A stretch of DNA of 59,538 bases from an uncultured Oscillospiraceae bacterium (lineage in GTDB: Bacteria > Bacillota > Clostridia > Oscillospirales > Oscillospiraceae), in the NCBI GenBank assembly GCA_944385665.1, contig CALWYB010000009.1:1-59538 (forward strand). The letters run 5' to 3'. The position numbers and the translations under genes were made by a program. Positions within the stretch are counted from its first letter, which is position 1, and each line of letters begins with the position of its first letter. The notes below the pieces were generated by a model, which worked only from the letters and a program-made list of their open reading frames with translations, ran no database searches and was not told the DNA's origin. Of the stretch, positions 14,970 to 59,087 are shown in pieces.

Positions 14970-17207
14970 ATGGACCCGATTTTGGAACGCTACCAGGCGC
15001 TGGAGGATAAAGTCAGCGCATATACCCCGAATTTGGATACCCAGCGGCTGTTTGCCGCCTTTACCTATGCCGATGCCGAACACCACGGCCAGCTGCGCAA
15101 GAGCGGTGAGCCCTATATCATCCACCCCCTGGCGGTGGCCGACATCGTGGCCGACCTGGGGCTGGATGTGGACAGCGTCATCGCCGCCCTGCTCCACGAC
15201 TGCATCGAGGACACCGACGCCACCCACGAAGAGATCGCCAAAAAGTTCGGCGAGCCGGTGGCCGAGCTGGTGGAGGGGGTCACGAAACTGACCCGGGTGC
15301 AGTATGTCTCCAAGGAAGAGGAGCAGATGGAGAACCTGCGCAAGATGCTCATGGCCATGGCCCAGGACATCCGGGTGATCCTCATCAAAATCTGCGACCG
15401 GCTGCACAACATGCGCACCATGGAGTACCAGTCTCCCAAGAAGCAGCGGGAGAAGAGCCTGGAGACCATGGAGATCTACGCTCCGCTAGCACACCGCTTA
15501 GGTATGCAGAAACTGAAATGGGAGCTGGAGGACCTGTCCCTTCGGTACCTGGACCCGGTGGGGTACAAGGAGATCGAGGACGAGATGGCCAAGCGCTCGG
15601 CTGCCCACGAGGAGTTTCTGGCCTCCATCCAGCTGCGCATCCAGCAGCGGCTGGAGCAGGAGGGCATCCGATGCAAGGTGTACGGCCGGGTGAAACACAC
15701 CTACTCCATCTACCGAAAAATGTTTACCCAGAACAAGACCCTGGACGAGATCTTCGACCTGTACGCCTTCCGGGTCATCGTGGACGACATCCCCGAGTGC
15801 TACAACGTGCTGGGCTGCATCCACGACATGTTCAAGCCGGTGCTGGGCCGCTTCAAGGACTATATCGGCACCCCGAAACCCAACATGTACCAGTCCCTCC
15901 ACACCACCGTCATCGGCCGGGAGGGCATCCCCTTTGAGGTGCAGATCCGAACCTGGCAGATGCACCAGACCGCCGAATACGGCATCGCCGCCCACTGGAA
16001 GTACAAGCAGGGCATGGCCAACAAGAAGCTGGGCACCGAGCAGGACTTTGAGTGGGTGCGCAAGCTGTTGGAGAGCCAGCAGGATACCGACGCGGAGGAG
16101 TTTGTCCGCACCCTGAAGGTGGATATGTTTGCCGACGAGGTGTTCGTCTTTACCCCCAACGGGGATGTGAAGAGCCTGCCCGCCGGAGCCACCCCCATCG
16201 ACTTCGCCTATAACATCCACTCCGCCGTGGGCAACGGCATGGTGGGCGCCAAGGTCAACGGCCGCATGGTGCCCTTTGACACCCCCCTGAAAAACGGCGA
16301 CATCGTGGAGGTCATCACCTCCAAAAACGCCAAGGGTCCCAGCCGGGACTGGCTGAAGATCGCCAAGAGCAACGAGGCCCGCAACAAGATCCGCCAGTGG
16401 TTCAAGCGGGAGCGCCGGGAGGAGAATATCGTCACCGGCCGCGCCCTGTTTGAGGCGGAGCTCAAGCATATGAAGATCCCCATGGCCGCCATCACCGCCG
16501 AGGACGTGCTGCCCCACATCCTCCACAAGGTGCGCTTCGGCACCCTGGACGAGCTGTACGCTTCCATCGGCTACGGCGGCACCACGGCGGTGAAGAGCGT
16601 GGCCCGGATCAAGGACGAGCTGGCCCGTCTGGGCCGCCTCCAGGCGGAGAAGGCGGCCGCTGCCGCCAAGACCACCGCCGAGAGCGTCATCGTCCCCGGC
16701 TCCACCGCCCAGAGCCAGACCTCCGGCCAGGCCAAGCCCAAGCACTCCGACTCGGGCATCATCGTGGAGGGGCTGGGCAACTGTCTGGTGAAGTTCGCCA
16801 AGTGCTGCACCCCCGTCCCCGGCGACCCGGTCATCGGCTTTATCACCCGGGGCTACGGCGTGTCCGTCCACCGGGCCGACTGCCCCAACGCCTCGCCCGA
16901 AAAGCGCAAGCCGGAGGAGGCCGACCGCTGGGTGAAGGTGTCCTGGGTGGAGAGCAGCCTGCCCAACTACAAGACGGCCCTGGAGCTGGCCTCCAAGGAC
17001 CGGGACGGCCTGACCCTGGACGTGGCCATGGCCCTGTCGGCGGCCAAGGTGAAGGTGGACGCCCTCACCGCCCGGGCCCTCCCCGACGGCCACGCCACCG
17101 TCAACATTGTGGTGGAGGTCAAAAACAAGGAGGAGCTGGCCACCGTCATCAACAAGCTCAACAACATCCAGGGCGTGTACCATGTGGCGCGGGCCAGTGG
17201 GAAATAA
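14970..17207 (+). CDS. relA: Bifunctional (p)ppGpp synthetase/hydrolase (RelA/SpoT homolog)
   Basis: This long RSH enzyme makes and breaks the alarmone (p)ppGpp in the stringent response. It has 745 residues. The HD hydrolase domain carries HDCIEDTDAT near residue 72. The synthetase domain (about 240-345) carries GRVKHTYSIYRKM and YQSLHTTVIG. A TGS domain (about 390-450, VFVFTPNGDVKSLPAGATPIDFAYNIH), a conserved-cysteine region with KCCTPVPGD near 613 and a C-terminal ACT domain (about 665-745) follow. Both catalytic domains look intact, so it is probably bifunctional. The start has AGGTGA upstream, 45 bases after recJ. Its TAA stop codon is the first triplet of a structured repeat shared with the groEL 3' end. 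Confidence 0.95.
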   Translation: MDPILERYQALEDKVSAYTPNLDTQRLFAAFTYADAEHHGQLRKSGEPYIIHPLAVADIVADLGLDVDSVIAALLHDCIEDTDATHEEIAKKFGEPVAELVEGVTKLTRVQYVSKEEEQMENLRKMLMAMAQDIRVILIKICDRLHNMRTMEYQSPKKQREKSLETMEIYAPLAHRLGMQKLKWELEDLSLRYLDPVGYKEIEDEMAKRSAAHEEFLASIQLRIQQRLEQEGIRCKVYGRVKHTYSIYRKMFTQNKTLDEIFDLYAFRVIVDDIPECYNVLGCIHDMFKPVLGRFKDYIGTPKPNMYQSLHTTVIGREGIPFEVQIRTWQMHQTAEYGIAAHWKYKQGMANKKLGTEQDFEWVRKLLESQQDTDAEEFVRTLKVDMFADEVFVFTPNGDVKSLPAGATPIDFAYNIHSAVGNGMVGAKVNGRMVPFDTPLKNGDIVEVITSKNAKGPSRDWLKIAKSNEARNKIRQWFKRERREENIVTGRALFEAELKHMKIPMAAITAEDVLPHILHKVRFGTLDELYASIGYGGTTAVKSVARIKDELARLGRLQAEKAAAAAKTTAESVIVPGSTAQSQTSGQAKPKHSDSGIIVEGLGNCLVKFAKCCTPVPGDPVIGFITRGYGVSVHRADCPNASPEKRKPEEADRWVKVSWVESSLPNYKTALELASKDRDGLTLDVAMALSAAKVKVDALTARALPDGHATVNIVVEVKNKEELATVINKLNNIQGVYHVARASGK

Positions 17208-17355
17208 GAAGCGCGGAGGGCAGGCGCATAGGGGCGACAGACTCCGGAGCGAATGGGCAGAGCCCAGGGGCAGCCAAGGGCTGAACCGGGTCTGCCAGGA
17301 GTCGGAGGAGTTGTCAACCCGGCCATGCGCCCAGCCCGCAGCGTGATCACAAGAC
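17205..17355 (+). repeat. Structured repeat family B, copy 1 (relA 3' region)
   Basis: This copy shares blocks with the segment after groEL (57308-57455, minus strand). The shared blocks are the start TAAGAAGCGCG, an AGGCGCA-AGGGG block and a 3' block containing ACCCGGCC, GCGCCCA and CCGCAGCGTGA. Nested stems can be drawn: 17218-17221 with 17334-17337, 17223-17229 with 17325-17331, 17236-17239 with 17312-17315, 17256-17261 with 17291-17296 and 17271-17275 with 17279-17283. Several stems have compensatory changes in the other copy. It fills most of the relA-dtd gap. Function unknown. Confidence 0.75.
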
Positions 17356-17370
17356 AAGAGGAGAAATTCG

Positions 17371-17805
17371 ATGCGAGCTGTTGTTACCCGGGTGTCCTCC
17401 GCCTCCGTCACCATCGACGGGGCGGTGCGGGGCGCCATTGACCAGGGCTATCTGGTCCTGCTGGGGATCGCACCCCAGGATAATGAGGCCGTGTGCGATA
17501 AGCTGGCCGAAAAGATCTGCAACCTGCGGGTCTTTGAGGACGAAAACGGCAAAATGAACTTGAATCTGGAACAGGTGGGCGGGGCGCTGCTGGTGGTGAG
17601 CCAGTTCACCCTCTACGCCGACACCAAGAGCCGCCGCCCCGGCTTTACCGGGGCCGCCAAGCCCGACGTGGCCATCCCCCTCTACGAGCGCTTTCTGGAC
17701 CAGTGCCGCCAGAGAGGCTTCCGGGTGGAACACGGAGAGTTCGGCGCGGATATGAAGGTGGCCTCGGTGAACGACGGCCCCGTCACCATACTGTTTGAAA
17801 TGTAA
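17371..17805 (+). CDS. dtd: D-aminoacyl-tRNA deacylase
   Basis: This enzyme removes D-amino acids (and glycine mischarged on tRNA-Ala) from tRNA, protecting translation. The 144-residue product matches family size. It starts MRAVVTRVSSASVTIDG, carries the catalytic SQFTLYADTKSRRPGF segment near residue 77 and ends with the cross-subunit motif NDGPVTILFEM. The ATG is preceded by AAGAGGAG. It follows relA after a 163-base gap filled by a structured repeat, and another repeat family follows its stop codon. Confidence 0.95.
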   Translation: MRAVVTRVSSASVTIDGAVRGAIDQGYLVLLGIAPQDNEAVCDKLAEKICNLRVFEDENGKMNLNLEQVGGALLVVSQFTLYADTKSRRPGFTGAAKPDVAIPLYERFLDQCRQRGFRVEHGEFGADMKVASVNDGPVTILFEM

Positions 17806-57265: not shown

Positions 57266-57297
57266 AAGAAAAAGTCCACGGCCTCGTAGGCCGTGGG
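57266..57297 (-). terminator. Terminator of the groESL transcript
   Basis: An 8-bp stem CCACGGCC/GGCCGTGG (57276-57283 with 57289-57296) is followed on the minus strand by ACTTTTTC. It lies downstream of the repeat that follows groEL. Confidence 0.75.
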
Positions 57298-57307
57298 CTT
57301 TCAGCAT

Positions 57308-57452
57308 GTTTTGTTGTCACGCTGCGGATTGGGCGCGCGGCCGGGTCGATAACTCCGTCGTCTTCGCCGCCAAACAGAAGGCCGCTTGGCCTTCTTGGTT
57401 TGCCGGCATCCGCTCTGTCGTTATCTCCCCTGTGCGCCTATCCTCGCGCTTC

Positions 57453-57455
<3 letters not shown>
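57308..57455 (-). repeat. Structured repeat family B, copy 2 (groEL 3' region)
   Basis: On the minus strand it starts with the groEL TAA and the same TAAGAAGCGCG block as the relA copy. Stems matching copy 1 are GGAT/ATCC (57440-57443 with 57326-57329), a GGCGC/GCGCC stem (57434-57438 with 57332-57336), GATAAC/GTTATC (57420-57425 with 57348-57353) and a long inner hairpin (57366-57383 with 57388-57407). The 3' block ACCCGGCC, GCGCCCA, CCGCAGCGTGA is shared. Confidence 0.75.

Positions 57456-59087
<1,632 letters not shown>

Follow-up and report, generated by a model that had tools for sequence, protein, structure and literature searches.

The window analysed here, a stretch of 59,538 nucleotides from an uncultured Oscillospiraceae bacterium, carries two copies of a structured element (family B), one behind a relA/spoT-type gene and the other behind groEL. 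The features concerned are as follows.

14970..17207, + strand: relA/spoT-type gene whose stop codon abuts copy 1 (ORF; Pfam RelA_SpoT, TGS and ACT_4)
17205..17349, + strand: family-B element copy 1, between relA and dtd (sequence, fold and covariance model R1)
17371..17805, + strand: dtd, the next gene 3′ of copy 1 (ORF; Pfam Tyr_Deacylase)
57269..57301, - strand: terminator-like hairpin and T-run 3′ of copy 2 (AAAGCCCACGGCCTACGAGGCCGTGGACTTTTT; by eye)
57312..57455, - strand: family-B element copy 2, between groEL and the groEL terminator (sequence, fold and covariance model R1)
57453..59081, - strand: groEL, whose stop codon abuts copy 2 (ORF; Pfam Cpn60_TCP1)

Copy 1 opens with the TAA at 17205-17207, the relA stop codon, and continues with a body at 17208-17346 (model coordinates) and three flank bases; its body stops 24 nt short of the dtd start codon. 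Copy 2 opens with the groEL stop codon (TAA, 57455-57453), continues with a body at 57452-57317 and five flank bases, and is followed by the terminator-like hairpin, while many of the examined groEL relatives have a similar stop-terminator arrangement without the element. The scores with covariance model R1 were 112.5 bits for copy 1 and 120.3 bits for copy 2, both of which are also members of the model seed. When aligned, the copies share their ends and differ in their middles, the common segments being TAAGAAGCGCG, ACCCGGCC, GCGCCCA, and CCGCAGCGTGA. A sequence-only reading of this DNA had claimed that the element begins at the relA stop codon and has a second copy after groEL, that the two copies have start and 3′ blocks in common, and that between them GGGC/GCCC becomes GGAT/ATCC and GACA/TGTC becomes GATAAC/GTTATC; the relA and groEL ORFs do end at these points, and the blocks as well as both replacements were found in the alignment. 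It had also held that the differing middles fold alike, and each copy was indeed predicted to form one long imperfect hairpin far more stable than shuffled sequence, with -77.4 kcal/mol for copy 1 (z of -5.34) and -65.7 kcal/mol for copy 2 (z of -5.82), energies reached by 0 of 200 shuffles in either case.

Nucleotide searches detected further family-B copies in the window's genome and in its genus. With a second covariance model (R2), copy numbers were 8 for the window's genome, 12 for a complete relative (G012), and 0 to 14 for ten other genomes, and a carrier genome holds about ten. Matches occurred in at least 41 of 64 genomes of the genus (with a covariance model from 36 copies), in at least 12 of 295 sampled genomes of the order (ten from the same family as the window, two from others), and in at least 2 of 391 sampled genomes of the class (the own genome and one of the same family), the window's genome being included in each count; these numbers are lower bounds, since a limited number of first-look candidates was scored, and the same limit applies to the 23 of 64 genus genomes with no match. 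The dispersed family foreseen from the two copies was thus recovered by both nucleotide and covariance-model searches. A pattern scan of one genome per species returned 26 stretches titled Flavonifractor, Pseudoflavonifractor capillosus, Candidatus Enterenecus, uncultured Clostridium, uncultured Oscillospiraceae, or uncultured bacterium, and the exact 3′-end pattern had 0 matches in viral contigs. Family B is a family of hairpin repeats of gut bacteria related to Flavonifractor; we know of no paper that describes it, which is a weak indication, the literature search having seldom been aimed at Flavonifractor. The copy sample consisted of 30 loci from the genus search and 100 stretches around the matches listed, with some listed matches left out. 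It yielded 171 distinct copies, among which 165 of at least 120 nt served for position, 164 for modules and alignment, and 156 for flanks.

A full-length copy measures about 135 nt (126 to 142 nt for 163 of the 165 copies used). In the commonest type, five short outer helices (AGCG/GCGT, GGAT/ATCC, GGCGCGC/GCGCGCC, GGG/CCC, and GCTT/AAGC) enclose purine-rich internal loops and then an exchangeable inner hairpin, and non-canonical spots recur in the outer helices, namely a G.U closing pair that hardly varies, a common GA/GA tandem, unpaired single A bases, and an asymmetric GGCC bulge. Most of the 165 copies have the termini GA, TA, or AT plus AGCG at one end and GTGA plus CA, TA, or AT at the other. 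The gene-sense strand was more stable than the antisense strand in 159 of 164 copies, with a mean difference of 9.4 kcal/mol, and the outermost pair is G.U in 156 of 164, both of which fit an RNA or a single-stranded DNA of the gene-sense strand. As a strand test, counts of G-U versus A-C gave 211:139 for pairs voted by sense folds (outermost pair left out) and 89:212 for pairs voted by antisense folds, and covariance-model-based alignments gave 317:57 and 154:25 but are fitted to the sense model; these counts are suggestive only, and more weight rests on the energy comparison and the outer G.U pair. An intrinsic terminator was rejected, since a T-run directly 3′ of the hairpin (at least 5 T in the next 12 nt) follows few copies (11/165).

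We then located the copies relative to genes called with a codon model for which relA and groEL served as seeds. None of the 165 copies lies inside a called gene, and 136 have a same-strand upstream gene. As many as 89 of the 116 first-in-row copies with such a gene start no more than 6 nt after its stop codon or overlap the stop, six of them overlapping the gene by more than 3 nt, and the other 27 lie at other positions. Uniform placement in the gap would put 13.2 (SD, 2.6) of the 111 scorable first copies near the stop, versus 85 observed. The preference for gene 3′ ends, which the sequence-only reading had proposed to check, is therefore pronounced. The 89 stop-anchored copies fall behind 43 clusters of upstream genes (single linkage; one cluster, with L169, looks mixed), and with each offset counted once per cluster, -3 occurred 14 times, 0 10 times, +3 13 times, and all others 21 times; at -3, the element's own TAA or TGA serves as the stop codon. 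Upstream genes include groEL, rpoA, tpi, EF-P, and S15, and there are neighbor genes that we take to be hisS, miaB, uvrB, rplQ, DnaK, GrpE, and similar. When the flanking genes are co-directional, 127 copies lie in sense and 13 in antisense orientation. Where the downstream gene is antisense, 3 of 17 copies have their 3′ end within 8 nt of that gene's stop, indicating that the orientation bias is not absolute. Several copies away from a stop codon are preceded by one of two recurring sequences, CTCGTCCAAGC (L141, L200, L206, L220, and L236) or TAGCAGTTGAATATG (L114, L132, L159, L194, and L231).

Occupancy of individual genes is patchy. After relA, the element is present in 4 of the 30 genus genomes examined (62 with a match), namely the window's genome (G000), G001, G040, and G058, as well as in a locus from another collection (L074). 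The carriers are scattered over the relA tree and the insertion is always exactly at the TAA, while the near neighbors G012, G019, and G060 are empty after relA. The relA loci of G000 and G058 have the 3′ flank TCACAA(G/T)ACAAGAGGAG in common, but their elements differ in type, suggesting that one element was replaced by another in situ. The rpoA 3′ gap, compared over 30 genomes, held five intact copies (G066, G077, G061, G064, and G067), one split copy (G063), shortened copies (by eye), and empty sites, the offsets running from -3 to +2. After groEL, the element was found in the window and in G049 (L120) and was absent from all 18 relatives whose groEL end could be read. Moreover, the same gene in different species carries different inner modules. 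Nested insertions, with a different hairpin repeat (GGAGGAGGAGGCACAGCG...TTGTGCCGACGAG) interrupting a family-B copy, were seen at L186:802-1048 (G008 C64), L062, and L333 (G063).

Covariation was evaluated on a MAFFT alignment of 36 copies that was built without structure information. In this alignment, 83.8% of cells pair versus 71.6% in shuffles, changes occur on both sides in 35 of 48 pairs, and the covariation score reached 0.340 versus 0.151 in shuffles (0 of 500 as high), the best slid version scoring 0.136; further pair types were not above shuffles (104 of 500 as high). We also applied a home-made tree-aware test in the manner of R-scape, which reshuffles substitutions along a FastTree tree under a null without conversion. 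It revealed 7 of 8,515 column pairs at an E of <0.05, 7/7 in the proposed helices (44 pairs), and, for 164 copies, 20 significant pairs, with 15 on or at most one column from the consensus structure and 5 elsewhere. The paired compensatory changes noticed in the two window copies thus hold up as significant covariation across many copies. Outer-stem swaps from GC to AU occurred in the 36 copies almost without G-U intermediates, e.g., 26 GC, 10 AU, and 0 GU at columns 18-129 and 22 CG, 14 AU, and 0 GU at columns 31-113, so part of the co-change may stem from whole-stem conversion or replacement.

Among the 164 copies, 14 pairs combine the same core (≥85%) with a different shell (≤65%; one such pair depends on the split copy L186), and 7 pairs combine the same shell (≥93%) with a different core (≤50%); these pair numbers have no chance level behind them, and several pairs involve the same copies. 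As read from these sequence comparisons, inner hairpins and outer shells recombine between copies, and the two middles in the window are not a single hairpin that has drifted under compensation. Together with the patchy presence, module exchange leaves strong host selection unsupported, and the earlier verdict that the paired changes mark selection on an RNA structure rather than mere decay of a repeat was too strong. Stop-codon anchoring, the recombination of shell and core, presence at the same nucleotide of relA in scattered species, and the lack of target duplication in single copies are new here.

The flanks were then inspected for target duplications. For 52 single copies, 8-nt flank similarity was 0.284 versus 0.288 in shuffles (SD, 0.016) and nothing exceeded shuffles at 8 to 10 nt, so target duplication as a general rule was rejected for single copies. 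Row copies (104 of 156 under a permissive rule) share an 8-nt flank motif (0.442 versus 0.363 shuffled; SD, 0.013), which could be a hidden target duplication. The 8-nt linkers were rejected as target duplications, since similar linkers recur at unrelated loci.

We next asked how family B compares with RAYT-associated and other known repeats. RAYT genes occur in the genus, and 17 loci were examined. Covariance model R1 gave no match at an E of ≤1 in 44,315 bases around the 17 RAYT genes, and R2 gave two weak matches there (E of 0.076 and 0.86); a cognate RAYT gene would be flanked by copies of its REP, but no convincing family-B copy lies beside these genes, and RAYT as a direct partner is not supported. 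No cognate mobilizing enzyme was found at the 17 loci, nor was transposition seen. The element is present in 15 of 17 RAYT genomes (chosen by eye) versus 26 of 47 others (Fisher P = 0.019, uncorrected for kinship and completeness), a weak co-occurrence. Mobilization by a Y1/RAYT enzyme is a plausible hypothesis. Several RAYT genes start at or overlap the stop of the upstream gene, as in L305, L306, and L307 (TGATGG, TAATGG, and TAAGTG), as if translationally coupled.

REPs occur in both orientations, whereas family-B copies lie mostly in one, at about ten per carrier genome. The REP tag, an unpaired GTAG or CGTC at one end of the hairpin, has by eye no counterpart at family-B termini. In PMC3733652, REP repeats are palindromic, intergenic, and very close to the upstream stop, and their termini often give the stop codon; family B is likewise palindromic, intergenic, and stop-adjacent, with RAYT genes in the same genus, but measures about 135 nt against the 20 to 40 bp given there. 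The BOX element of S. suis is described (PMC3049150) as a modular, predicted RNA hairpin with two outer families (boxE/boxF) around the same boxB modules. Shells and cores of family B recombine in a manner like that of streptococcal BOX (boxA-boxB-boxC), a likeness at the level of description; the inner module of family B is replaced rather than tandemly multiplied, and family B abuts stop codons. The bcr1-bcr18 repeats of the Bacillus cereus group, also Firmicute intergenic repeats and likewise compared by description, are often located in UTR or intercistronic positions, some being MITE-like and some having a conserved secondary structure (PMC3446304); they belong to another clade, and the sections of that text that were seen mention no stop-codon anchoring. 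Rfam gave no gathering match in the window and no match at an E of ≤1 in 4 element loci. The sequence-only reading, which had recognized no named class, was therefore right at the level of the family, but the behavior matches that of REP and BOX repeats as described.

We reasoned that family B is probably a long, modular variant of the REP/BOX type of palindromic repeat, mobile but non-autonomous, which sometimes forms head-to-tail rows (probability of roughly 0.68), and that it is probably transcribed as a 3′-UTR hairpin. The mobile palindromic element and the 3′-UTR RNA suggested earlier are thus both likely and compatible. Structure, covariation, stop-codon anchoring, module exchange, patchy presence, and shortened copies are supported directly, while the strong orientation bias, the missing REP tag, the missing partner enzyme, and the lack of observed movement count against a mobile repeat. 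Copies would land mostly in one orientation, just after or over a stop codon, single ones without target duplication, and an inserted copy would become the first part of a 3′-UTR or intercistronic mRNA, sometimes in head-to-tail rows. Copies would be remodeled by recombination with one another and lost by deletion. The element would be transcribed, might move in trans via a single-stranded hairpin with the help of a Y1/HUH (RAYT-like) enzyme, and could incidentally affect mRNA decay or the cistron downstream. A more daring version, which we hold to be quite improbable, is that a mobile hairpin has translation stop sites themselves as its target, insertion or survival being coupled to an exposed ORF 3′ end, so that relA, rpoA, and some forty other gene families would be hit mostly at -3, 0, and +3, with the inner hairpin as a swappable cartridge between constant ends.

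Would a host-selected, cis-acting 3′-UTR RNA account for the data as well, i.e., a stability or processing hairpin that guards the upstream mRNA from 3′ exonucleases or tunes the next cistron? Its position at the stop codon would be kept because ribosomes would otherwise unfold the hairpin, and the more stable sense strand (159/164), the G.U closing pair (156/164), the significant covariation in the tree-aware test, and upstream genes such as groEL, rpoA, tpi, EF-P, and S15 are in its favor, as is bcr3, a structured repeat of another Firmicute that goes with a longer transcript half-life (3.6 versus 2.5 in a published table; PMC3446304). However, presence is patchy gene by gene (4/30 at relA; the window but 0/18 relatives at groEL), 23 of 64 genus genomes have no match, and one gene has different inner modules in different species; patchy presence does not support a conserved host function, and we consider this explanation unlikely. 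About equally unlikely is a mutational rather than selective origin of the paired changes, by template switching between arms or conversion by other copies that rewrites both arms. Module exchange and double changes from GC to AU that nearly bypass G-U, as at columns 18-129 and 31-113, agree with it, but arm correction should erase unpaired spots, whereas an unpaired A occurs at the same two positions in all 36 copies, the GA/GA tandem and the GGCC bulge being mostly kept as well, and the covariation is significant under the tree-aware null, which contains no conversion.

Movement of family B as a classical MITE, by a DDE transposase that acts on terminal inverted repeats and leaves a target duplication of fixed length, fits least and is very improbable. 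The end dinucleotides do correlate, and TA...TA (22/32) and AT...AT (6/6) could reflect a 2-bp duplication in some members of the family; exact repeats of 6 to 9 nt also flank 8 of 156 copies, seven of them in rows (by eye). In contrast, the largest end class, GA...CA (95/115), is not a duplication, the flanks of the 52 single copies stay at the shuffled level, and the termini form a short imperfect stem instead of long inverted repeats.

On the mobile-repeat reading, the elements look like genome passengers that may also shield mRNA ends; a host role in mRNA stability is possible as a side effect and need not be selected. A gut genus thereby gains a family of hairpin repeats that land by a sharp rule and whose inner parts can be exchanged. 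Should these elements shape mRNA ends, relA, groEL, and rpoA with and without them in sister species would be natural experiments on 3′-UTR function and operon balance. The stop-codon precision also raises the question of target choice by the mobilizing enzyme versus selection after insertion.

Two further arrangements were observed. At L057:2228-2360 and L064:457-589, a family-B copy stands between an upstream AGGGTGGAACCGTGG motif that we take to be T-box-like and a downstream terminator-like hairpin, and may thus be part of a T-box leader; neither locus had a T-box match in Rfam. A second structured repeat (GGGGAGAGGAGGAGCGACAAAG...GACGACGAAG and variants) separates an intact gene from a duplicate of that gene's 3′ tail, at groEL in L266 (G060) and L269 (G019) and at another gene just upstream of the RAYT gene in L311 and L317. 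This repeat looks like an insertion with duplication of the gene tail, and L262 and L304 have a tail copy too, with a different intervening sequence.
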